The notes under the pieces were generated by a model, which had not been told where the DNA came from, searched no databases, and saw nothing but the letters and a program-made list of their open reading frames with translations. A stretch of 64,000 nt of DNA from Kribbella amoyensis (GTDB lineage: Bacteria; Actinomycetota; Actinomycetes; Propionibacteriales; Kribbellaceae), in NCBI RefSeq assembly GCF_007828865.1, contig NZ_VIVK01000001.1:620001-684000 (forward strand). The letters run 5' to 3'. Positions 5,559 through 53,695 of this stretch are shown piece after piece; position 1 is the first letter of the stretch, and every line of letters begins with the position of its first letter. Both the position numbers and the translations under genes were made by a program.

Positions 5559-6932
5559 TCACGTATAGACGAACTGGGCGCTCGCCACACCGTCGGTGTC
5601 GCTGACCAGCCGGACCCAGTGCGCGCTGAACCCGGGCGGGAAGACGTGCGTGACGATCCGGCCCGGCTCGACCGTGAACTGCTCCACCGCGCCGAACCGG
5701 CCGTGGCCGTGGAAGTCCAGCTCGAGCGTGATCCGCAGGGGGGTGTCGCCGAAGTTCTCCAGGTGCAGGCACTTGTTGTCGAACCCGGTCATCAGGTACG
5801 GGTCGGACGGCACGCCCGCCTCGACCGGGCTCTCCCACCACGGGCCGCCCCAGCCGGCCGGCTTGCCGAAGTTCCACAGGTCGTCGGTCTTGCCGAACCA
5901 CAGCCCGGACTGCGGCTCGGCCGTGGTCGGGTTGAGCCCGTGGCTGGGCGAGGCGTTGTCGGCGCCGGCGACGAACATCCCGCGCCAGGAGCAGAAGTCG
6001 CCGAGTACCCACAGGTGCGTGGAGATCGGCCGGACGCCCCAGACCCGGCCGCCGTACGCCCACGGGGACAGCTCGTAGAACATCCCGTGGTGGTCGACCA
6101 GCAGCCGCTCGTGCTCGACCTCGCGGATCCGCGGCCACTCGGTCTGCCACTTGTGGTCGAAGCAGTGCGACGCCTTCGGCAGCCGGTACCGGGTCCACTG
6201 CCCGTCGGACTCGGTGAACACCTCCAGGATCGCGGACGCCTGGTCCCAGCCGGTCGCGAAGATGGTGCCGCCGAACTCGTGCCGGCCGCCGATCGCGGTG
6301 AACGGCTTGCGGGCCAGGATCCGCCAGGACGTCCCGTCGTACTCCGCGAGCCGGCCGCGGGCCTGCCGGTTGTCCCAGTCGGCCTCCTCGTACTCGTTCG
6401 AGCAGACCACCAACCGGCCGAAGGACGTGTAGCAGTCCTTGTAGTGCACCTTCATCTCGCCGTCGGTCTCGAGCTCGGTGTTGAGGTCGAAGACCTGGAC
6501 GCACTCGTACGTGGTGAGGTCGAGCTCGAACACCTCGCCCTCCATGCACAGCACGTACACGTGGGTGTCCGGCTTGGTCAGGTGCCGCGACGTGCCGCAC
6601 ACCCGCAGCGGCTGGAGCTCGGGGATGGTGGTGATCTTGTGGTTCTCGTCGATCACGTGCGGACCGAGCACCAGCTGTGAGGTCGGGAAGTGCACGAACC
6701 GGTTGGTGTACGTACCGTCCACGCCGAGCGTCTCCGGCACGATCTCCATCGTGAAGTCCGGCTCGATCCGGCGCAGGCTCACCCCGCCGCCGCTGTGGGC
6801 CTTGTGCGAGTTGTAGTTCTGGACGTAGAGCTTCCCGTTCCACGGCATCAGCGAACCGATGCCGAGCTCGCTGCGCGGCGGACCGAAGTCCCCGATCTGC
6901 GCGAGCGACGGGAAGACACCTGAGACGTTCAC
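5559..6932 (-). CDS. Unknown protein, beta-propeller-like, in sugar ABC operon
   Basis: 457 aa from the GTG at 6932; GGAGGAG lies 6 bp upstream, which argues against the TTG two codons earlier. No signal peptide or membrane segment. The sequence consists of regularly spaced short strands rich in W, G, T and aromatic residues (for example PDTHVYVLCMEGEVFELDL and GRLAEYDGTSWRILARKPF), as in seven-bladed propellers, with a separate C-terminal beta-sandwich-like end (about 390-457). I cannot name a family. It lies between permease and regulator genes (gap to the permease 12 bp), so it is translated with the transporter and is probably cytoplasmic; a lyase or epimerase with a propeller fold is one possibility, but this is speculative. 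Confidence 0.6.
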   Translation of the reverse strand: MNVSGVFPSLAQIGDFGPPRSELGIGSLMPWNGKLYVQNYNSHKAHSGGGVSLRRIEPDFTMEIVPETLGVDGTYTNRFVHFPTSQLVLGPHVIDENHKITTIPELQPLRVCGTSRHLTKPDTHVYVLCMEGEVFELDLTTYECVQVFDLNTELETDGEMKVHYKDCYTSFGRLVVCSNEYEEADWDNRQARGRLAEYDGTSWRILARKPFTAIGGRHEFGGTIFATGWDQASAILEVFTESDGQWTRYRLPKASHCFDHKWQTEWPRIREVEHERLLVDHHGMFYELSPWAYGGRVWGVRPISTHLWVLGDFCSWRGMFVAGADNASPSHGLNPTTAEPQSGLWFGKTDDLWNFGKPAGWGGPWWESPVEAGVPSDPYLMTGFDNKCLHLENFGDTPLRITLELDFHGHGRFGAVEQFTVEPGRIVTHVFPPGFSAHWVRLVSDTDGVASAQFVYT

Positions 6933-18377: not shown

Positions 18378-19670
18378 ATGGACGTATCGCCGCTGGTCTG
18401 GACGCTGACCGTCCTCGGGATCCTCGGCCTGCTCGCCTTCGACTACTTCTTCCACGTCCGCCGGGCGCACGTTCCGACGCTGCGCGAGGCCGCGATCTGG
18501 TCCAGCCTGTACGTCGGGATCGCGCTGCTGTTCGGCGTCGGCACCCTGGTGCTGGGCGGCACCGCGATGGGCTCGGAGTACTTCGCCGGGTACATCACCG
18601 AGAAGGCGCTGTCGGTCGACAACCTGTTCGTCTTCCTGATCATCATGACCAGCTTCCGGGTGCCGCGGGAGGACCAGCAGAAGGTGCTGCTGGTCGGGAT
18701 CGTGTTCTCGCTGATCGCCCGGACCGGGTTCATCCTGCTCGGCTCGGCGCTGATCAACACGTTCAGCTGGGTGTTCTACCTGTTCGGGCTGGCCCTGCTG
18801 ATCACCGCCGGGAACATGTTCAAGCCGCAGACCGAGGAGTCGCACTCGGCGCAGAACGTGGTGGTCCGGATCAGCCGGCGGTTGTTCCGCACCACCGACC
18901 ACTACGACGGCGACAAGCTGTTCACGGTCCAGGACGGCCGCCGGGTGATGACCCCGATGCTGCTGGTGATGGTGGCGATCGGCGGCACCGACCTGATGTT
19001 CGCGCTGGACTCGATCCCGGCGATCTTCGGGCTGACCCAGAACGTGTACATCGTGTTCACCGCGACCGCGTTCAGCCTGCTCGGGCTGCGCCAGCTGTAC
19101 TTCCTGCTGGACGGGCTGCTCGACCGGCTGATCTACCTGTCGTACGGTCTGGCGGTGATCCTCGGCTTCATCGGGGTGAAGCTGGTGCTGCACGCCCTGC
19201 ACGAGAACAACGTCCCGTTCATCAACAACGGTGAGCACGTCGAAGTCGGCGAGATCGGTACCGGGTTGTCGCTCGCCGTCATCCTCGTCGTGCTGGTGAT
19301 CACCGTGTTCGCCTCGTTGTTCAGTACCCGCGGCCGGACCCAGACCGCGATGGCCAACGCCCGCCGGGACGCGACGGCGTACCTGGACTCGGAGTACACC
19401 CGGGACCCGGACGAGCGCGAGCGGATCTTCAAGCGGCTGGTCGAGTCGCGGGATCACATCGTCGCGCTCGGCCCGAAGGCCAAGCAGATCGTCAAGAACG
19501 AGCCCGAGCTGCTCGAGCTGTGCCGGCTGGCCGCCGCGAGCCACGAGCGGGCGATGGCGGACGGGCAGCATCCGGTGGCGTCCTTCCACGACGGCGGACC
19601 GTCGCCGCTGGACAGCTCCAAGTACCCCCGGCCGCCGTCATCCCTTGACGGCTCCGGAAGCCAGACCTGA
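18378..19670 (+). CDS. TerC/Alx-family integral membrane protein
   Basis: 430 aa with about nine membrane helices. The two TerC signatures with acidic residues in membrane segments are present (ITEKALSVDNLFVFLIIM and GGTDLMFALDSIPAIFG). TerC/Alx proteins are implicated in manganese export and tellurite-stress phenotypes. The soluble C-tail from about 335 is charged and longer than usual, and its last residues are read through the complementary strand of a dead permease fragment (19638-19730), so the natural stop may have been changed. No yybP-ykoY riboswitch was recognised upstream. Confidence 0.9.
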   Translation: MDVSPLVWTLTVLGILGLLAFDYFFHVRRAHVPTLREAAIWSSLYVGIALLFGVGTLVLGGTAMGSEYFAGYITEKALSVDNLFVFLIIMTSFRVPREDQQKVLLVGIVFSLIARTGFILLGSALINTFSWVFYLFGLALLITAGNMFKPQTEESHSAQNVVVRISRRLFRTTDHYDGDKLFTVQDGRRVMTPMLLVMVAIGGTDLMFALDSIPAIFGLTQNVYIVFTATAFSLLGLRQLYFLLDGLLDRLIYLSYGLAVILGFIGVKLVLHALHENNVPFINNGEHVEVGEIGTGLSLAVILVVLVITVFASLFSTRGRTQTAMANARRDATAYLDSEYTRDPDERERIFKRLVESRDHIVALGPKAKQIVKNEPELLELCRLAAASHERAMADGQHPVASFHDGGPSPLDSSKYPRPPSSLDGSGSQT

Positions 19671-42099: not shown

Positions 42100-42942
42100 T
42101 CAGGTGGTGACCTGGTAGCGGATGTACCAGGTGCCGTTGGACGGGCGCCAGACGGTGTGGTCGGTGACCGGGTCGCCGAGGTAGTCGCCGGGCAGCGGGA
42201 CGTCGCCGTTCACGCCCCATGTGACGGTGGTGCCACCACGGACGAACCACTGGCCAGTGGACGGCCGGAAGACGACCAGGTCCGCCTTGCCGCGGCCGGT
42301 GAAGTACGCCGGGGCCGGGAGGTCACCTGGTTCGCCCCAGACGATCCCGCCCGACGTACCGCGGACGAACCACTGCCCGCTGGACGGCCGGTACACCGCG
42401 ATGTCGGCGTGCGCGTCGGCCAGGTAGTCACCCGGGACCGCCTTGTCCCCCACCGTTCCCCAGGTGATCGGCTCCAACGAGCCCTGGACGTGGAAGAAGC
42501 CTGCCGACGGACGGAAGATGGCCGCCTCGTACGACGCGCCGCCGAGGTAGTTCGCCGGGGCGGGCACGTCGCCGTTCTGGCCCCAGAGGAACTGGCCGAT
42601 GCCGCGGATGTACCAGAACCCGTTCGACGGGCGGAACAGGGCCAGCTCGGCCTTGCCGTCGCCGTTGTAGTCGGCCGGGACCGGGATGTCGCCGTTCTGG
42701 CCGAACTGGATCGGATTCGCGCCGCGGATGTACCAGGTGCCGTTGCTCGGCCGGAAGACGGCGAGATCGGCGCGGCCGTCACCGACATAGTTCGCCGGGA
42801 CCGGAATATCACCGTCGCGGCCCCAAACAATCGATTGGGTGAGAATTCTGGTGTCGGTGGTCGCGGCCGGCGCGGTCGGCGCCAGCCCGACGGCGGTGGT
42901 CACGAGCACGGACAGGCCCGCAAGGACACGTTTGTAGTGCAA
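42100..42942 (-). CDS. Secreted FG-GAP/VCBS-like six-repeat protein
   Basis: 280 aa from TTG 42942 (GGGGGAAC 6 bp upstream; an ATG 10 codons earlier is less likely). Signal peptide through APAA. Then six repeats of about 37 residues with the pattern WG..GD.PVPANY.GDG.A.LAVFRPS.G.WY.RG, as in integrin-type propeller blades with calcium-like GDG turns. Paralogue of the next gene but without its C-terminal domain. Function unknown; probably a secreted surface or matrix protein. Confidence 0.82.
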
Positions 42943-43141
42943 GGCAGTTCCCCCTTGAGAGACAGGCGGCATTGACAGCCGGCGTCTCCCACCCGGCCCC
43001 CTGACCGGCCCACCGCCCACGATTGTTTGTCGTTCCGCAGGGCCTGCCGCGATCGTCACAAATCATTTATCCGATCGCAAGGCGCAAGAATGGGGAAATC
43101 CGGAAATACCAGAATCGCTTGCACGTTCAACCGAAAAACAA

Positions 43142-43172
43142 CCGGCCCCCGACCTGCTACCTCGGGGGCCGG
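43142..43172 (-). terminator. Intrinsic terminator after the second FG-GAP-like gene
   Basis: 11-bp perfect stem (CCGGCCCCCGA with its complement) and 9-nt loop, followed on the minus strand by TTGTTTTTC, 9 bp after the stop codon. A textbook Rho-independent terminator, rare in this GC-rich window. Confidence 0.92.
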
Positions 43173-43180
43173 CGGCTCTC

Positions 43181-44230
43181 TCAGCTCTCGCAACCGATCC
43201 CGTCGTTGTCACTGTCGAAACGATGCGGGTCGGCACCGATCACCCGGAAGTTGCGGTACGGGATGTCGCCGCAGTCGAGATCCGGCGGCGGGGGCTTGAT
43301 GCAGGCCGTCGGATAGGACGGGTCGCAGTTCGGCGTCGTCGGCGGCGGGGTCGGCGGCGTCGTCTGGACTACGTAGCGGAGGTACCAGGTGCCGTTGGTG
43401 GGGCGGAAGACTGTGTGGTCGGTGGCGGTGGTGCCGGCGTAGTTGCCGGGTTGGGGGCGGTCGCCGCTTCGGCCCCAGGTGGTGGTGCTGCCGCCGCGGA
43501 CGTGCCAGGCGCCGGTCGACGGGCGGAAGACGGTGAGGTCCGCCTTGCCGTTGCCGACGAAGTTCGCGGGCGCCGGGACGTCGCCGCGCACACCCCACGG
43601 CAGCTGCGAGGCACCGCGGATGAACCAGCGGCCGGTGGACGGACGGAAGACGGCCAGGTCGGCGTGGCTGTCGCCGACGTAGTCCGCCGGGGCTACCACG
43701 TCGCCGTTGACGCCCCACGCGATCTGCGCCGCGCCCCGGATGAACCAGCGGCCCGTCGATGGACGGAACACCGCCGCCTCGGCCCGGCTGTCGCCCACGT
43801 AGTTCGCCGGCGCCGGGACGTCGCCCCGCTGACCCCACACGAACTGGCCGACGTTGCGGACGTACCAGTACCCGTTGGACGGACGGAACACCGCGAGCTC
43901 GGCGCGGCCGTCACCGGTGAAGTCCGCCGGGACCGGGATGTCGCCGGCCTGGCCGAACTTGATCGTGCTGCCGCCGCGGAGGTACCAGGTCCCGTTGCTC
44001 GGACGGAACACGGCGAGCTCGTACCTGCTGTCCCCCACGTAGTTGCGCGCAACCGGGATGTCGCCGTTCTGGCCCCACCGGATCGCCGAGCTGACCACCT
44101 TCGTCGCGGCGGCAGCGGTGGATGCGGTGGATGCGGTGGTGGTCGACGGACCGGCTTCGGCCGGCGCGGTCAGGCCGACGGCAGCGGTCGCCACCACCGC
44201 CAGCCCCAGGGCTGCGGATCTGAAACGCAT
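43181..44230 (-). CDS. Secreted FG-GAP-like six-repeat protein with excalibur domain
   Basis: 349 aa. Signal peptide through PAEAG (about 27), a Thr/Ala linker, six 37-residue repeats like the downstream paralogue (AVFRPSTGRWFIRG and similar), a Pro-rich linker and a C-terminal excalibur calcium-binding motif (DSDNDGIGCE) with paired Cys residues. ATG preceded by GAGGGGG. The two paralogues lie head to tail with 238 bp between; the excalibur part suggests cell-wall or extracellular matrix localisation. Biochemical role unknown. Confidence 0.85.
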   Translation of the reverse strand: MRFRSAALGLAVVATAAVGLTAPAEAGPSTTTASTASTAAAATKVVSSAIRWGQNGDIPVARNYVGDSRYELAVFRPSNGTWYLRGGSTIKFGQAGDIPVPADFTGDGRAELAVFRPSNGYWYVRNVGQFVWGQRGDVPAPANYVGDSRAEAAVFRPSTGRWFIRGAAQIAWGVNGDVVAPADYVGDSHADLAVFRPSTGRWFIRGASQLPWGVRGDVPAPANFVGNGKADLTVFRPSTGAWHVRGGSTTTWGRSGDRPQPGNYAGTTATDHTVFRPTNGTWYLRYVVQTTPPTPPPTTPNCDPSYPTACIKPPPPDLDCGDIPYRNFRVIGADPHRFDSDNDGIGCES

Positions 44231-47964: not shown

Positions 47965-48066
47965 CCGCTCCCTTCCCTGCCGGAGGACTCCTGTCAGCAC
48001 CAACTCCCAGCCGTCCGGTCCGTATTCCCACCGGGTCCCCGCCGGCGCCGTGGCAAAATCTGCCGG

Positions 48067-51000
48067 GTGCAGATCGGGATACTGGGACCCTTCGAGGTTC
48101 GCACGGACGGCGGCGCCCTCGTCGAGGTACCGGGTGCCCGGCTGCGCGCGCTGCTGACCGCGCTCGCGCTCGAACCGGGCCGGGTGGTCGCGAAGGCGAC
48201 GCTGGTGGACTGGATCTGGGGCGAACAACCGCCCGCCGACGCCACCAACGCCCTGCAGCGCCTGGTCTCCCGGCTGCGCAAGATCCTGCCGGAGGGGTCG
48301 ATCGAGGGCCTGACCGACGGCTATCGGCTGAAGCTCGCGCCGGATGCCGTGGACGCGGTCGAGTTCGAGCGACTCGTCGGCGAGGCCCGGACGGACGAGG
48401 AGGCGCACCGGATCCGGCTGTTGCGCGAGGCGCTCGGCCTGTGGCGCGGTGCGGCCCTGCAGGACGTCGGTCTGGAGGAGAGCGAAGCCTTCGACGCCGC
48501 GGTCACCCGGCTCGAGCGGTTGCGGCTGACCGCGGTGGAGGACCGGTTCGAGGCCGAGACCGCCCACGGCGGCGGTGCGGATGCGGTCCCCGAACTGACC
48601 GATCTGGTGGCCGCGTACCCGGTCCGGGAGCGGCTGGTCGGCGCGCTGATGCGGGCCCTCGTCGCGAGCGGCCGTGACAGCGAGGCACTGCTCGTGTACG
48701 AGCGGACGCGGGAGGCGCTGGCCGACGAGCTCGGCGTCGATCCGTCCCCCGAGTTGTCCGCACTGCACGTCGCGTTGCTGCGGGGTGAGCTGGTCCGGCG
48801 GGAGGAGAAGCGGCCGACGAACCTGCGGGCCGAGCTGACCACGTACGTCGGCAAGGACACCGAGGTCACCGCGGTCCGCGAGCTGATCGCCGGGCATCGG
48901 CTCACCACGTTGATCGGGCCGGGTGGTTCGGGCAAGACCAGGATGGCGACCGAGACCGCCCGGACGCTGCTCGACGAACTGCCGGACGGGGCCTGGCTGG
49001 TCGAGCTCGCGGCGATCGGCGCCGACGCCGACGTGGCCCAGGCCGCGCTCGACGCGCTCCGGCTGCGGGACGCCTTGGTCGGTGAGGTCCCGGACGCGGA
49101 GCCGACGGACCGGTTCATCGCCGCGGTCCGCGAGCGGGAGATGCTGCTGGTCCTGGACAACTGCGAGCACGTGATCGAGTCGGCGGCGGCGTTCGCCCAT
49201 CGCGCGCTCGGCGAGTGCCGGCGGCTGCGGATCCTCGCGACCAGCCGCGAACCGCTCGGGATCACGGGTGAGGCCCTGTGGCCGGTGGCCCCGCTGGTCC
49301 TGCCCGCGGAGACCGCCGACGCCGCCGAGGTCGAGGCGTCGCCGGCCGTCCGGCTGCTGCAGGACCGAGCCAGTGCCGTACGCAACGATCTCGGGACCGA
49401 CGCCGCGACGATGGCCACGATGGCGCGGATCTGCCGGGCCCTGGACGGGATGCCGTTGGCCATCGAGCTCGCCGCGGCCAGGCTGCGCACGATGACGCTG
49501 GACCAGCTCGCGAACCGCCTCGACGACCGGTTCCGCCTGCTGACCGGGGGCAGCCGGACGGCGTTGCCGCGGCACCGGACCCTGCGCGCGGTGGTCGACT
49601 GGAGCTGGGAGCTGCTCAGCGACGCCGAGCGGATGGTGTTGCGCCGGCTCGCCGTGTTCGCGGGTGGGGCGAGCCTGGAGGCGGCCGAGCGGGTCTGCGC
49701 GGGCGACGCGGTCGAGAGCTGGGAGGTCCTCGAGCTGCTGACCGCGTTGACCGAGAAGTCGCTGGTGGTCGTCACCGGCGAGGACAACCCGCGGTACCGG
49801 ATGCTCGGCACGATCAAGGAGTACGCCGAGCAGCGGCTCGCCGAGGCCGGGGAGGCCGAGCTGACCCGGCGGACACACCTGGCGTACTTCACCGAGCTCG
49901 CCGAGACCGCGGAACCGCATCTGCGCCGCGCCGAGCAGCTCGAGTGGCTGGCCGCGGTCGAGGCCGAGCACGACAACGTCGCCGCCGCGATGCGCGGTGC
50001 CATCGCCGCCGGTGACGCCGACGGCGCGATGCGGCTCGCGGCGTACGCGGGCTGGTACTGGTGGCTCGGCGGGCACAAGGCGGAGGGCGACGAGCTGTTG
50101 CTCGCGGCAACCGCGGTCCCTGGTGAGGTGGCCGAGGACGTCCAGGCGCTGGTGTACTCGTTCGTCACCGGGTTCCTGACGTCGGGGCGCGGGCGGGACC
50201 AGTACCAGGCGGCGGACTGGATCCGGAAGGCGTACGAGCTCAGCCTGCGGGTCGAGAGCCCGCATCCGGCGGTGAAGTTCGCGGCGCCGCTGGAGCGGTT
50301 GCTGCACGGGCCGGACGCCTTCCTGACCGCGTTCGAACCGTTGCTCGACGACGACGATCCGTGGGTCCGCGCGCTGGCCCGGCTCCAGCTCGGCAAGATG
50401 CGGATCATGCTCGGCGAGGGTGGCAAAGAGGCGGACGAGTACCTGGAGACCGCGCTCGCCGAGTTCCGCGCGATCGGCGAACGCTGGGGCATGTCGTTCG
50501 CGCTGACCGAGCTGGCGGACCGGATCGCCGTCCGCGGTGACTTCGCCCGCGCCTGCGAGTACTACGGCCAGGCAGTCGCCGTCGTGACCGAGGCCGGCGC
50601 GATCGAGGACGTCGTCCGGATGCGGACGCGGCAGGCGCAGCTGTACTGGCTGGCCGGGGAGAAGGACGCGAGCGCGGCGGCGATGGCGGAGGCGCAGCGG
50701 TTCGCGGAGCGGGTCGCGTGGCCGGAGGCGCTGGTCGAACTGGCCCTGGGCAAGGCCGAGCTCGCGCGGTGGAGCGGCGACGCCGAGCAGGCCCGCCGGC
50801 AGCTCGGGACCGCGACCACCTTGCTGGGCAGCGAGGCCGAGAAGGCGAACCTCCGCGCGACGCGGCACGACCTGCTCGGGTATCTCGCGGTGGACACGGC
50901 CGAGTCCCGCGAGCACCGGATCGCCGCCTTCGAGGCCGCGTCCGAGGCGGCGTACGCACCGGCGATCGCGCAGGTCCTGGTCGGCGTCGCGGACCTTGCC

Positions 51001-51207
51001 CTGCGCAACGAACAGTACGAGCAGGCGGCCAGGTTGCTGGGCGCGAGTGCCGGGGTCCGCGGACTGCCGGACCGGTCCAACCCCGAGCTGACCCGGATCG
51101 AGGCCGAGACGCGCCGTCGCCTCGGTGATCCGGAGTTCACCGAGGCGACGCGACAGGGTACGGAGGCGAGCTGGCCGGAACTGGCCCAGGTCACGCTCGC
51201 TTCGTGA
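48067..51207 (+). CDS. SARP-STAND regulator (AfsR-like: BTAD, NB-ARC, TPR)
   Basis: 1046 aa, GTG start 7 bp after CAAAAT. Residues 1-95 are an OmpR-type winged helix (GILGPFEV, EQPPADATNALQRLVSRLRK), 95-245 the BTAD domain, about 285-550 an NB-ARC ATPase (Walker A GPGGSGKTRM, Walker B MLLVLDNCEH, ATSREPLGI sensor), 560-1046 helical TPR-like repeats. SARPs activate transcription by binding heptameric direct repeats at 11-bp spacing. Exactly such repeats lie in the promoter region between the adjacent exporter and DUF4097 genes (52895-52923). Its end overlaps the convergent permease gene by 17 bp. Confidence 0.93.
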   Translation: MQIGILGPFEVRTDGGALVEVPGARLRALLTALALEPGRVVAKATLVDWIWGEQPPADATNALQRLVSRLRKILPEGSIEGLTDGYRLKLAPDAVDAVEFERLVGEARTDEEAHRIRLLREALGLWRGAALQDVGLEESEAFDAAVTRLERLRLTAVEDRFEAETAHGGGADAVPELTDLVAAYPVRERLVGALMRALVASGRDSEALLVYERTREALADELGVDPSPELSALHVALLRGELVRREEKRPTNLRAELTTYVGKDTEVTAVRELIAGHRLTTLIGPGGSGKTRMATETARTLLDELPDGAWLVELAAIGADADVAQAALDALRLRDALVGEVPDAEPTDRFIAAVREREMLLVLDNCEHVIESAAAFAHRALGECRRLRILATSREPLGITGEALWPVAPLVLPAETADAAEVEASPAVRLLQDRASAVRNDLGTDAATMATMARICRALDGMPLAIELAAARLRTMTLDQLANRLDDRFRLLTGGSRTALPRHRTLRAVVDWSWELLSDAERMVLRRLAVFAGGASLEAAERVCAGDAVESWEVLELLTALTEKSLVVVTGEDNPRYRMLGTIKEYAEQRLAEAGEAELTRRTHLAYFTELAETAEPHLRRAEQLEWLAAVEAEHDNVAAAMRGAIAAGDADGAMRLAAYAGWYWWLGGHKAEGDELLLAATAVPGEVAEDVQALVYSFVTGFLTSGRGRDQYQAADWIRKAYELSLRVESPHPAVKFAAPLERLLHGPDAFLTAFEPLLDDDDPWVRALARLQLGKMRIMLGEGGKEADEYLETALAEFRAIGERWGMSFALTELADRIAVRGDFARACEYYGQAVAVVTEAGAIEDVVRMRTRQAQLYWLAGEKDASAAAMAEAQRFAERVAWPEALVELALGKAELARWSGDAEQARRQLGTATTLLGSEAEKANLRATRHDLLGYLAVDTAESREHRIAAFEAASEAAYAPAIAQVLVGVADLALRNEQYEQAARLLGASAGVRGLPDRSNPELTRIEAETRRRLGDPEFTEATRQGTEASWPELAQVTLAS

Positions 51208-51934
51208 ACGTGGACGACGCCCACAGGTAGCCGACGAGCGCGATCCCCAGGCACCAGGCGAGCGCCTGGATCGCGTCCCCGGCCGCCGGGGTGCCGTTGA
51301 GCAGGCCGCGCAGGGTCTCGATGATCGGCGTGAACGGCTGGTACTCCGCGAACTGCCGGACGCCGGCGCCCATCTTGTCCGCCGGCACGATCGCGCTGCT
51401 GAAGAACGGCAGCATGACCAGCGGGACGGACGCCAGACCCGCCGTCTCCGGGGACTTCGCGAACAGGCCGAGCGCGACCGTGAGCCAGGCGGTGGCGAAC
51501 CCGAGCAGGGCCACCATCCCGATCACGCCGAGCCAGTCGAGGAAGCTCGCCGACGGGCTGAAGCCGAGCAGGAACGCGACGCCGAGCAGGGCCGCGACGG
51601 CGATCAGGTTGGTCAGCAGGCTGGCCACCACGTGACCGGTCAGTACCGCGCTGCGCGGGACGTCCATCACCTTGAACCGGTTGATGATGCCCTTGGTCAT
51701 GTCCGAGTTCACCGCGGTCGCCACCGCGCCGAGGCCGTAGCAGACAGCCAGCAGGAGCAGGCCCGGCGTCGCGTAGTCGACGTAGTCCACGCCGACGTTG
51801 AAGGCGTCGCCGAGGATGTACACGAACATGAACATCATCACGACCGGCATCAGGATCGCGTTGAACACCGAGGTGGGGTTGCGGGCGATGTGCTTGAAGT
51901 TGCGGCGCAGCATCACGATCGAGGGGTTCTTCAT
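51191..51934 (-). CDS. ABC-2 type exporter permease (DrrB-like)
   Basis: 247 aa with six membrane helices; N-terminal RRNFKHIARNP and ABC-2 signature region (NRFKVMDVPRSAVLTGHVV, then GLASVPLVMLPFFSSAIVP). Partner of the ATPase immediately upstream, whose stop overlaps its ATG (ATGA). Probably exports a lipophilic compound or drug. Confidence 0.92.
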   Translation of the reverse strand: MKNPSIVMLRRNFKHIARNPTSVFNAILMPVVMMFMFVYILGDAFNVGVDYVDYATPGLLLLAVCYGLGAVATAVNSDMTKGIINRFKVMDVPRSAVLTGHVVASLLTNLIAVAALLGVAFLLGFSPSASFLDWLGVIGMVALLGFATAWLTVALGLFAKSPETAGLASVPLVMLPFFSSAIVPADKMGAGVRQFAEYQPFTPIIETLRGLLNGTPAAGDAIQALAWCLGIALVGYLWASSTFTKRA

Positions 51935-52872: not shown

Positions 52873-52894
52873 GGCTCCACTCTCAGCGGCCGCC

Positions 52895-52923
52895 CTGACA
52901 CCCTCCTGACACGCGTCTGACAC
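52895..52923. promoter_or_regulatory. Three CTGACAC heptamers at 11-bp spacing (candidate SARP site)
   Basis: CTGACAC occurs at 52895-52901, 52906-52912 and 52917-52923, exactly 11 bp apart; on the minus strand this reads as GTGTCAG repeats pointing at the DrrA-like gene 23 bp away. An inverted copy, GTGTCAG, lies at 52957-52963 toward the DUF4097 gene. The geometry (heptamers with 4-bp spacers) is that of SARP operators, and the SARP-STAND gene ends 1.7 kb away. Confidence 0.7.
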
Positions 52924-53029
52924 CGGCCGGGACCGCGTCAGCGCCGTGACTGCCCGGTGTCAGCCCGGCCCGGAATGGTTGCTCCTGTCAGCAGGACCGC
53001 ACATCACCAGTACTTACAAGGAGCACACC

Positions 53030-53695
53030 ATGCAGACCTTCGAAACCCCCGCCGCGATCTCCACCGTGCTCGACATCCCGGCCGGCACCGTCCGGTTCGT
53101 CGCCGCCGACCGCACCGAGACCACGGTCGAGGTCCGGCCCGCCAACCCGGCCAAGAGCCGCGACGTGAAGGCCACGGAGGAGACCAAGGTCGAGTACGCC
53201 GAGGGCGTGCTGCGGATCGAGGCCCCCACCAAGACCCAGATCCTCGGCAGCTCCGGCACCGTCGAGGTCACGGTCCAGCTACCCGCCGGGTCCCAGGTCG
53301 CGGCGAAGGCGGCCAGCGCCGAGCTCACCGCGGCCGGCCGATTCGGCGACTTCACCGTCGAGAGCTCGCACGGCGCGATCGAGATCGAGGAGGCCGCGAA
53401 CGTCCGGCTCACCACCCAGGCCGGGGACATCACGGTCGGCCGCCTGACCGGGGCCGGCGAGCTCAGCACCGCCAAGGGTGACCTGCGGATCACCGAGGCG
53501 GTCAGCGGCAAGATCGTCCTGACCACCCAGGCCGGCGACATCACGGTCGGCGCCGCGACCGGGGTCTCCGCCTCGCTGGACGCCGGGACCACCCTGGGCC
53601 GGATCCAGAACTCGCTCAAGAACGCCGACGGGGTGGCCGCCCTGCAGATCCACGCGACCACCTCGCACGGTGACATCTCGGCCCACTCGCTCTGA
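53030..53695 (+). CDS. DUF4097-family beta-helix-like protein
   Basis: 221 aa, ATG with AAGGAG 6 bp upstream. Repeated adhesin-like strands with the recurring motifs TTQAGDITVG and SHGAIEIEE (two TTQAGDITVG copies at about 122 and 162), the DUF4097 pattern of short beta-solenoid coils. No signal peptide, so cytoplasmic. Role unknown; genes of this type commonly accompany ABC-2 exporters or MarR regulators, matching its divergent position to the DrrAB genes. Confidence 0.85.
   Translation: MQTFETPAAISTVLDIPAGTVRFVAADRTETTVEVRPANPAKSRDVKATEETKVEYAEGVLRIEAPTKTQILGSSGTVEVTVQLPAGSQVAAKAASAELTAAGRFGDFTVESSHGAIEIEEAANVRLTTQAGDITVGRLTGAGELSTAKGDLRITEAVSGKIVLTTQAGDITVGAATGVSASLDAGTTLGRIQNSLKNADGVAALQIHATTSHGDISAHSL

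Follow-up and report, generated by a model that had tools for sequence, protein, structure and literature searches.

SARPs are known mainly as switches of antibiotic clusters, and few of their specificities have been established by experiment. Direct repeats at 11-bp intervals near the -10 element are the textbook form of a SARP operator (PMC10936776, PMC10972967, PMC5930380, PMC4393881). AfsR of Streptomyces coelicolor, a large SARP composed of a winged helix, a BTAD, an ATPase and a C-terminal part, is described as sitting side by side as a dimer on 11-bp repeats, with the helix residues Thr88 and Arg92 touching bases, and its afs box as a pair of 11-bp direct repeats that covers the -35 region, with 11 or 22 bp as the distance from one repeat to the next (PMC10936776). 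The SARP-LAL regulators PimR, SanG and PolR read two or three CGGCAAG heptamers on 4-bp spacers at antibiotic-cluster targets; PimR needs at least two heptamers for binding, and its operator lies off the -35 element (PMC5930380). OtcR and the small SARPs of the TCGAG/TCGA type likewise use direct repeats 11 bp apart, with the repeat CGGTCGAAG, at biosynthetic promoters, the 3' repeat standing near the -10 element, and the OtcR gene adjoins the efflux gene otrB (PMC4393881).

The Kribbella amoyensis locus described here, part of a stretch of 64,000 nucleotides analyzed as a whole (the window), resembles each of these systems in part. Its SARP is large and has a winged helix and BTAD as in AfsR, followed by a putative ATPase region and a long C-terminal part, its heptamers stand on 4-bp spacers, and its gene adjoins an exporter pair, drrAB, much as that of OtcR adjoins otrB. 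The heptamer is GTGTCAG, in contrast to CGTT(T/C)ATCGNN for AfsR (PMC10972967), and the predicted targets are exporter, P450 and hydrolase genes, whereas the target of AfsR is afsS. We consider it very probable, from the arrangement and distribution of the repeats, that they constitute two divergent operators of the adjacent AfsR-like SARP, acting as an activator. The features, in window coordinates, are the following.

48067..51207, plus strand: large SARP regulator, 1046 aa, GTG start; winged helix, BTAD, ATPase-like region and long C-terminal part
48259..48261, plus strand: Arg65 codon in the recognition helix (AfsR Thr88 position); predicted reader of heptamer G3
51191..51934, minus strand: drrB-type ABC-2 membrane protein, 247 aa
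51931..52872, minus strand: drrA-type ABC exporter ATPase, 313 aa; predicted target
52879..52884, minus strand: predicted drrA -10 box, GAGAGT; 10 bp separate it from slot 1 and 6 bp from the ATG
52895..52901, minus strand: drrA operator slot 1, GTGTCAG, starting 29 nt before the drrA ATG
52906..52912, minus strand: drrA operator slot 2, GTGTCAG, 11 bp upstream of slot 1
52917..52923, minus strand: drrA operator slot 3, GTGTCAG, 11 bp upstream of slot 2
52935..52941, plus strand: DUF4097 operator slot 3, GCGTCAG
52946..52952, plus strand: DUF4097 operator slot 2, GTGACTG, degenerate as in most relatives
52957..52963, plus strand: DUF4097 operator slot 1, GTGTCAG; the inverted copy of the earlier reading
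52974..52979, plus strand: predicted -10 box of the DUF4097 gene, AATGGT
53030..53695, plus strand: DUF4097 "toastrack" protein, 221 aa; predicted target

The predicted drrA operator thus reads GTGTCAG-N4-GTGTCAG-N4-GTGTCAG-N10-GAGAGT-N6-ATG, with all slots perfect, and the predicted DUF4097 operator GCGTCAG-N4-GTGACTG-N4-GTGTCAG-N10-AATGGT, each with three slots in 11-bp steps. The sequence-only reading of the window had described three direct CTGACAC copies and one inverted copy in exact 11-bp register, with a SARP gene ending 1.7 kb away. The copies are exactly where it put them, at 52895, 52906 and 52917 on the plus strand and inverted at 52957-52963, the word on the transcribed strand being GTGTCAG. 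A distance of 1.69 kb separates the first repeat from the end of the SARP gene at 51207. The register is exact as well, and the strict pair is unique in the 8.12-Mb genome: CTGACAC-N4-CTGACAC gives two overlapping matches in its 8,120,218 bases, here only, and the reversed-pattern control gives 0 in the same sequence. The one further CTGACAC in the 64 kb, at 19667, is unrelated. The grouping has to be revised, since the "inverted" copy belongs to a second, divergent operator facing the DUF4097 gene, in which it is the heptamer nearest the promoter; a single four-copy cluster with an inverted arm was rejected in favor of two divergent operators. That reading had missed this second operator, the -10 box, from which transcription is probably leaderless, and the further targets. 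Elsewhere in the window, the 3' ends of the SARP and drrB genes overlap by 17 bases (51191-51207), and two proteins of repeated units resembling a sequence of 25 protein letters (not shown) adjoin at 42100-44230 on the minus strand.

The protein belongs to the SARP family by its domains, an N-terminal OmpR-type winged helix (Trans_reg_C, 34.6 bits against a cut-off of 26.2) followed by a BTAD (130.3 bits, cut-off 22.1). Across the 1046 residues, a match to AAA_22 at 277-393 (E 5.5e-5) falls under its cut-off, and no TPR match was obtained. PDB matches are confined to AfsR and EmbR, and the closest solved structures are those of AfsR (8hvr, 8k60 and 8jke; E 1.8e-37 to 3.3e-36). Ser68, Arg69, Arg71 and Lys72 align with AfsR Ser91, Arg92, Arg94 and Lys95. 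An AfsR orthologue should carry the same two base-contacting residues; here Arg92 is kept (Arg69), but Thr88 is replaced by Arg65. The operator departs from that of AfsR in having up to four slots and a 12-bp distal step, although the -35 sequence of afsS, TTCAGC, has TCAG in common with GTGTCAG. The heptamer had been called unlike the TCGAG type, and it indeed has no TCGAG core; this does not exclude SARP membership because the core varies among known SARPs. Atr32, considered as a relative, has 667 aa (PMC6835768) as against 1046 here. In the open-access literature, searched by title and abstract, no SARP operator with GTGTCAG or CTGACAC was found, and the GTGTCAG word in PMC10933834 belongs to a SAV151 site; nor did the open-access literature yield an NB-ARC SARP tied to an exporter, MMPL, P450 or Kribbella.

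The arrangement upstream of drrA is conserved beside SARP orthologues. All 38 Kribbella genomes encode the SARP, sharing 67-79% identity with the window protein (window itself excepted), the match falling into two pieces in one of them (L169, G007:C57). A scan of GTDB genomes supplied the best 80 SARP loci, 9 from Kribbella and the rest from 24 other named genera and one MAG, and at most loci the SARP, drrB and drrA are convergent. From the Kribbella genomes and these best 80 loci we collected 99 drrA promoters, 90 of them distinct, leaving out two loci where the drrA match stops short of its start (L159, L167), one that belongs to a paralogue (L170), and those without a drrA match (L168 in Kribbella and 16 of the best 80). 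At least two slots matching GTGWCAG at 6 or 7 of 7 positions in a fixed frame were present in 82 of the 90 distinct promoters among the loci listed, which are not phylogenetically independent (32/35 in Kribbella, 50/55 elsewhere), and in a mean of 0.25 and a maximum of 2 of 90 after shuffling. The sequence-only reading had named absence of the repeats from orthologous exporter promoters as the observation that would count against it; they are present in these 82, with register and spacing to the start codon preserved, and the proposed SARP site of unlisted specificity is supported as a predicted operator. The frame starts 29 nt before the ATG in 59 promoters and 30 nt in 23, and an exact TGWCAG pair at 11 bp occurs in 64 of 90 among the loci listed, against 0.01 expected. 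Slot 1 is filled in 75 promoters, slot 2 in 72 and slot 3 in 65, and heptamer counts give G-T-G-T/A-C-A-G. A fourth slot precedes slot 1 by 34 bp in 40 promoters and by 33 bp in only 2, so the distal step is 12 bp, not 11. Eight promoters fall short of two matching slots in the frame: five (L163, L164, L166, L186, L229) have visible repeats but a misplaced inferred start codon, L233 offers a single good heptamer, and L210 and L217 have none at drrA.

Conservation also disposes of the idea that the repeats are a chance or replication-slippage tandem with no regulatory role. Slippage can yield three copies at a fixed short period, and single CTGACAC copies are not over-represented in the window, where 5 were observed against 9.5 expected from shuffles, a number that is not unusual. 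The spacers between the heptamers differ in sequence, however, and the arrangement persists in 82 of 90 promoters among the loci listed, at a fixed distance from a conserved -10 element, as against at most 2 in shuffles; we rejected this explanation, whose probability we regard as negligible. Strictness matters here: in the genome, heptamer pairs with up to 3 mismatches number 425 against 416 in controls, so loose matching carries no signal, which lies instead in strict heptamers with the -10 element added.

The position of the slots relative to the promoter bears on whether the SARP would activate or repress. The -10 consensus at drrA is G/C-A-N-N-G-T, with A2 and T6 in all 82 promoters among the loci listed, and the -10 box played no part in the choice of frame. 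Direct repeats lie 11 or 22 bp apart, as in known SARP operators; where those place the 3' repeat about 8 bp upstream of the -10 element, the distance here is 10 bp from heptamer end to GANNGT, a figure that depends on how the repeat is bounded. The AfsR box, placed at -40 to -19 (PMC10936776), also gives 10 bp if the -10 element is assumed to start at -12. Slot 2 stands where a -35 element would be, in promoters otherwise without an evident -35, and the slots fit an overlap with the -35 region as judged from the predicted start. The spacing would probably make the drrA transcript leaderless. A SARP that binds the heptamers and represses drrAB and the DUF4097 gene would also have its sites overlapping the promoter, and the repressive SARP Atr32 has been reported beside ABC transporter genes (PMC6835768). 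Against this stand slot 1, which ends exactly 10 bp before the conserved -10 element, and slot 2 at the place of the missing -35, together the activator layout described for AfsR and OtcR (PMC10936776, PMC4393881), and we regard repression as very improbable.

The operator also accompanies the SARP away from drrA. At 21 SARP loci without a usable drrA promoter the whole stretch was scanned, and in 17 the best site scored 22-25, above all 63 shuffled loci (maximum 19). In 13 of those 17, a site of at least 22 stands before a gene whose product shares its N-terminus with two P450s confirmed by Pfam (L183, L217); at L187 the site of the P450-like gene scores 21, and the best site (22) precedes a doubtful frame. 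Other sites precede DUF4097-like genes (L208, L217, L248, L249) and an Rce1-like gene (L221). Over the whole stretch, L159, L167, L168 and L241 had no operator above the shuffles, L168 tying the highest of them. Because the SARP is present in all 38 Kribbella genomes, a presence/absence test is useless within the genus and was made at class level, over 197 genomes. A SARP homologue at E <= 1e-200 is encoded in 21 of these, and 18 contain sites that match GTGTCAG-N4-GTGTCAG-N10-SANNGT when 1 mismatch is allowed. The genomes with sites include 11 of the 21 with a close homologue and 7 of the 176 without (one-sided Fisher p = 2.4e-8, for sequences that are not phylogenetically independent), or 10/16 versus 8/181 when the cut is made at 63% identity (p = 1.4e-8). 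In 8 of those 11 genomes, that of the window included, a site lies within 3 kb of the SARP. Reversed-pattern controls gave 0 matches in the 197 genomes. Against the link to this SARP stand the 10 of 21 SARP-bearing genomes that have no site at this stringency of at most 1 mismatch and the 7 of 176 that have one without a close SARP homologue. Upstream of the SARP itself, a heptamer pair is present in 1 of 80 regions and absent from 79 among the best 80 loci, and autoregulation was rejected on that count. A conserved TGGCARRATC a few bases before the SARP GTG (48050-48069 in the window; L173, L174, L178, L186, L190, L205, L243) suggests a constitutive leaderless promoter.

These data also weigh on the reading in which the SARP is a bystander and another BTAD/SARP paralogue or an OmpR-type response regulator uses the GTGTCAG repeats. 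Direct repeats at 11 bp are common to SARPs and PhoP (PMC10972967), and the genome gives 6 SARP-like matches at E <= 1e-100, or at least five proteins besides this one. One of its other BTAD regulators could share the sites, and a 42%-identical paralogue has the near-identical word GTGCCAG in the same geometry. Nevertheless, loci in which a P450-like gene, DUF4097 or an Rce1-like gene replaces drrAB as the neighbor of the SARP keep the operator, and across the 197 genomes sites go together with close homologues of the SARP. The operator of the paralogue departs from this one at heptamer position 4, and position 3 varies in step with Arg65. We therefore consider a bystander role quite improbable.

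The covariation points to how the window SARP may read its heptamer. A recount rejected the view that Arg65 is invariant: among the loci listed, it is present at 111 of 117 orthologous loci, with Ala in 5 and Gln in 1, and these six exceptions are all Nocardia. Heptamers were tallied at the 112 of 117 loci whose best operator scores at least 22, a set in which Kribbella loci fetched twice are included. Among the loci listed, all six non-Arg65 orthologues have GTATCAG, with G3 changed to A, in one slot, whereas A at position 3 occurs at 1 of 106 Arg65 loci, in a poor heptamer, GGAACAG. Since all six exceptions are Nocardia, few evolutionary events may underlie this covariation. The 42%-identical Kribbella paralogue (L170) likewise stands beside a drrA/drrB-like pair and has a heptamer pair at 11 bp and N10 before the -10 element at 8 of 9 loci with a drrA match, of 21 fetched. 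Its geometry is like that of the window SARP; its heptamers are GTGCCAG, mixed with GTACCAG, GTGACAG and GTGTCAG, differing at position 4, and it has Ser in place of Arg65 (21/21). Taken together, the covariation with position 3 and a Ser65 paralogue with other heptamers predict that Arg65 contacts heptamer G3. Beside other SARP-like genes, GTGTCAT-N4-ATGTCAT-N10-GATCGT precedes one in the same genome (L309, C1:2507528-2507561) and may be that gene's own operator, of a third specificity. A de novo search for other SARP codes near two further SARPs of this genome found nothing at L171 and, at L172 (minus strand, near 5980), one unconfirmed pair, CCGACAG-N4-CCGACAG, in the interval that separates a 39%-identical SARP from a divergent oxidoreductase-like gene; it is a possible fourth code.

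Predicted targets extend beyond the SARP locus. In the 38 Kribbella genomes, the 11-bp pattern with up to 2 mismatches gave 124 matches against 13 in controls and the 22-bp version 153 against 14, the totals of 124 and 153 including overlapping frames counted more than once. Sites outside drrA were picked by hand from the 11-bp matches (30 loci, one site twice). They precede MMPL transporters in 10 Kribbella genomes, beta-lactamase-fold proteins (6 close relatives and three more by eye) and, also in Kribbella, alpha/beta hydrolases, an Rce1-like protein and an ABC ATPase, with Pfam confirming one member in each of four target families. In the window's own genome, the predicted targets are drrA (0 mismatches), the DUF4097 gene (2), a beta-lactamase-fold gene at C1:2781442-2781486 (0 in the 22-bp version) and an alpha/beta hydrolase at C2:103979-104023 (1); matches at C1:3996043, which is without a gene, and C3:174059 are unconvincing. 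For DUF4097, we took 30 of 35 strong matches, the window's own included, and found GTGTCAG-N15-GTGTCAG, in 22-bp register and with 0-1 mismatch, upstream of 21. The remaining nine (L034, L035, L038, L040, L042, L044, L046, L050, L054) match this pair only with 5-7 mismatches, and a GCAACG/CGTTGC word occurs 3-6 times upstream instead; these repeats are probably sites of another regulator, and the nine loci are a different promoter class that does not support the SARP reading. Most DUF4097 orthologues stand away from the SARP, which would thus act there in trans; in one genome a DUF4097 match beside a SARP locus is in two pieces (L098, G036:C350).

For the SARP as activator of two divergent operators, we envisage the following mechanism. 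Its winged-helix/BTAD protomers would bind GTGTCAG heptamers side by side, one helical turn apart, occupy the place of the -35 box and recruit RNA polymerase to GANNGT 10 bp downstream. As in its homologue AfsR, two slots would carry a side-by-side dimer that keeps sigma region 4 and the polymerase at a promoter without a -35 element, switching on drrAB, with a start at or next to the ATG, and, divergently, the gene for DUF4097. Presumably the activator is gated by its ATPase and C-terminal part in response to a toxic compound, a signal that we infer from the target genes. Orthologues keep this code over many actinobacterial genera and would control exporters, P450s and hydrolases.

The SARP thus probably runs an efflux/detoxification regulon. 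More tentatively, and with somewhat less than even confidence, we propose that its clade is a widespread actinobacterial sensor-activator of xenobiotic defense, in which a STAND-type receptor would recognize toxic small molecules and use a code of its own (as many as four GTGWCAG slots, spaced 11, 11 and 12 bp, then N10 and GANNGT) to switch on exporters (DrrAB, MMPL), a P450, hydrolases, beta-lactamase-fold proteins and DUF4097, the residue at the position of AfsR Thr88 setting heptamer position 3. Elsewhere, WhiB7 switches on xenobiotic defense in a like manner. If this proposal is true, SARP specificities may be read and predicted from genomes, since one helix residue would set one heptamer position; the same sites recur before pumps and detoxifying enzymes in many soil bacteria, so that the code and part of the target set would be readable as well. 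The locus offers a conserved SARP clade with a readable predicted operator code, which accompanies the regulator from genus to genus and from one unrelated target gene to another, and a specific residue-base prediction, Arg65 with G3. Together, these make it possible to test directly how SARP helices choose their heptamers, what is sensed by the ATPase/C-terminal part of a large SARP, and whether SARPs run efflux and detoxification in actinobacteria.
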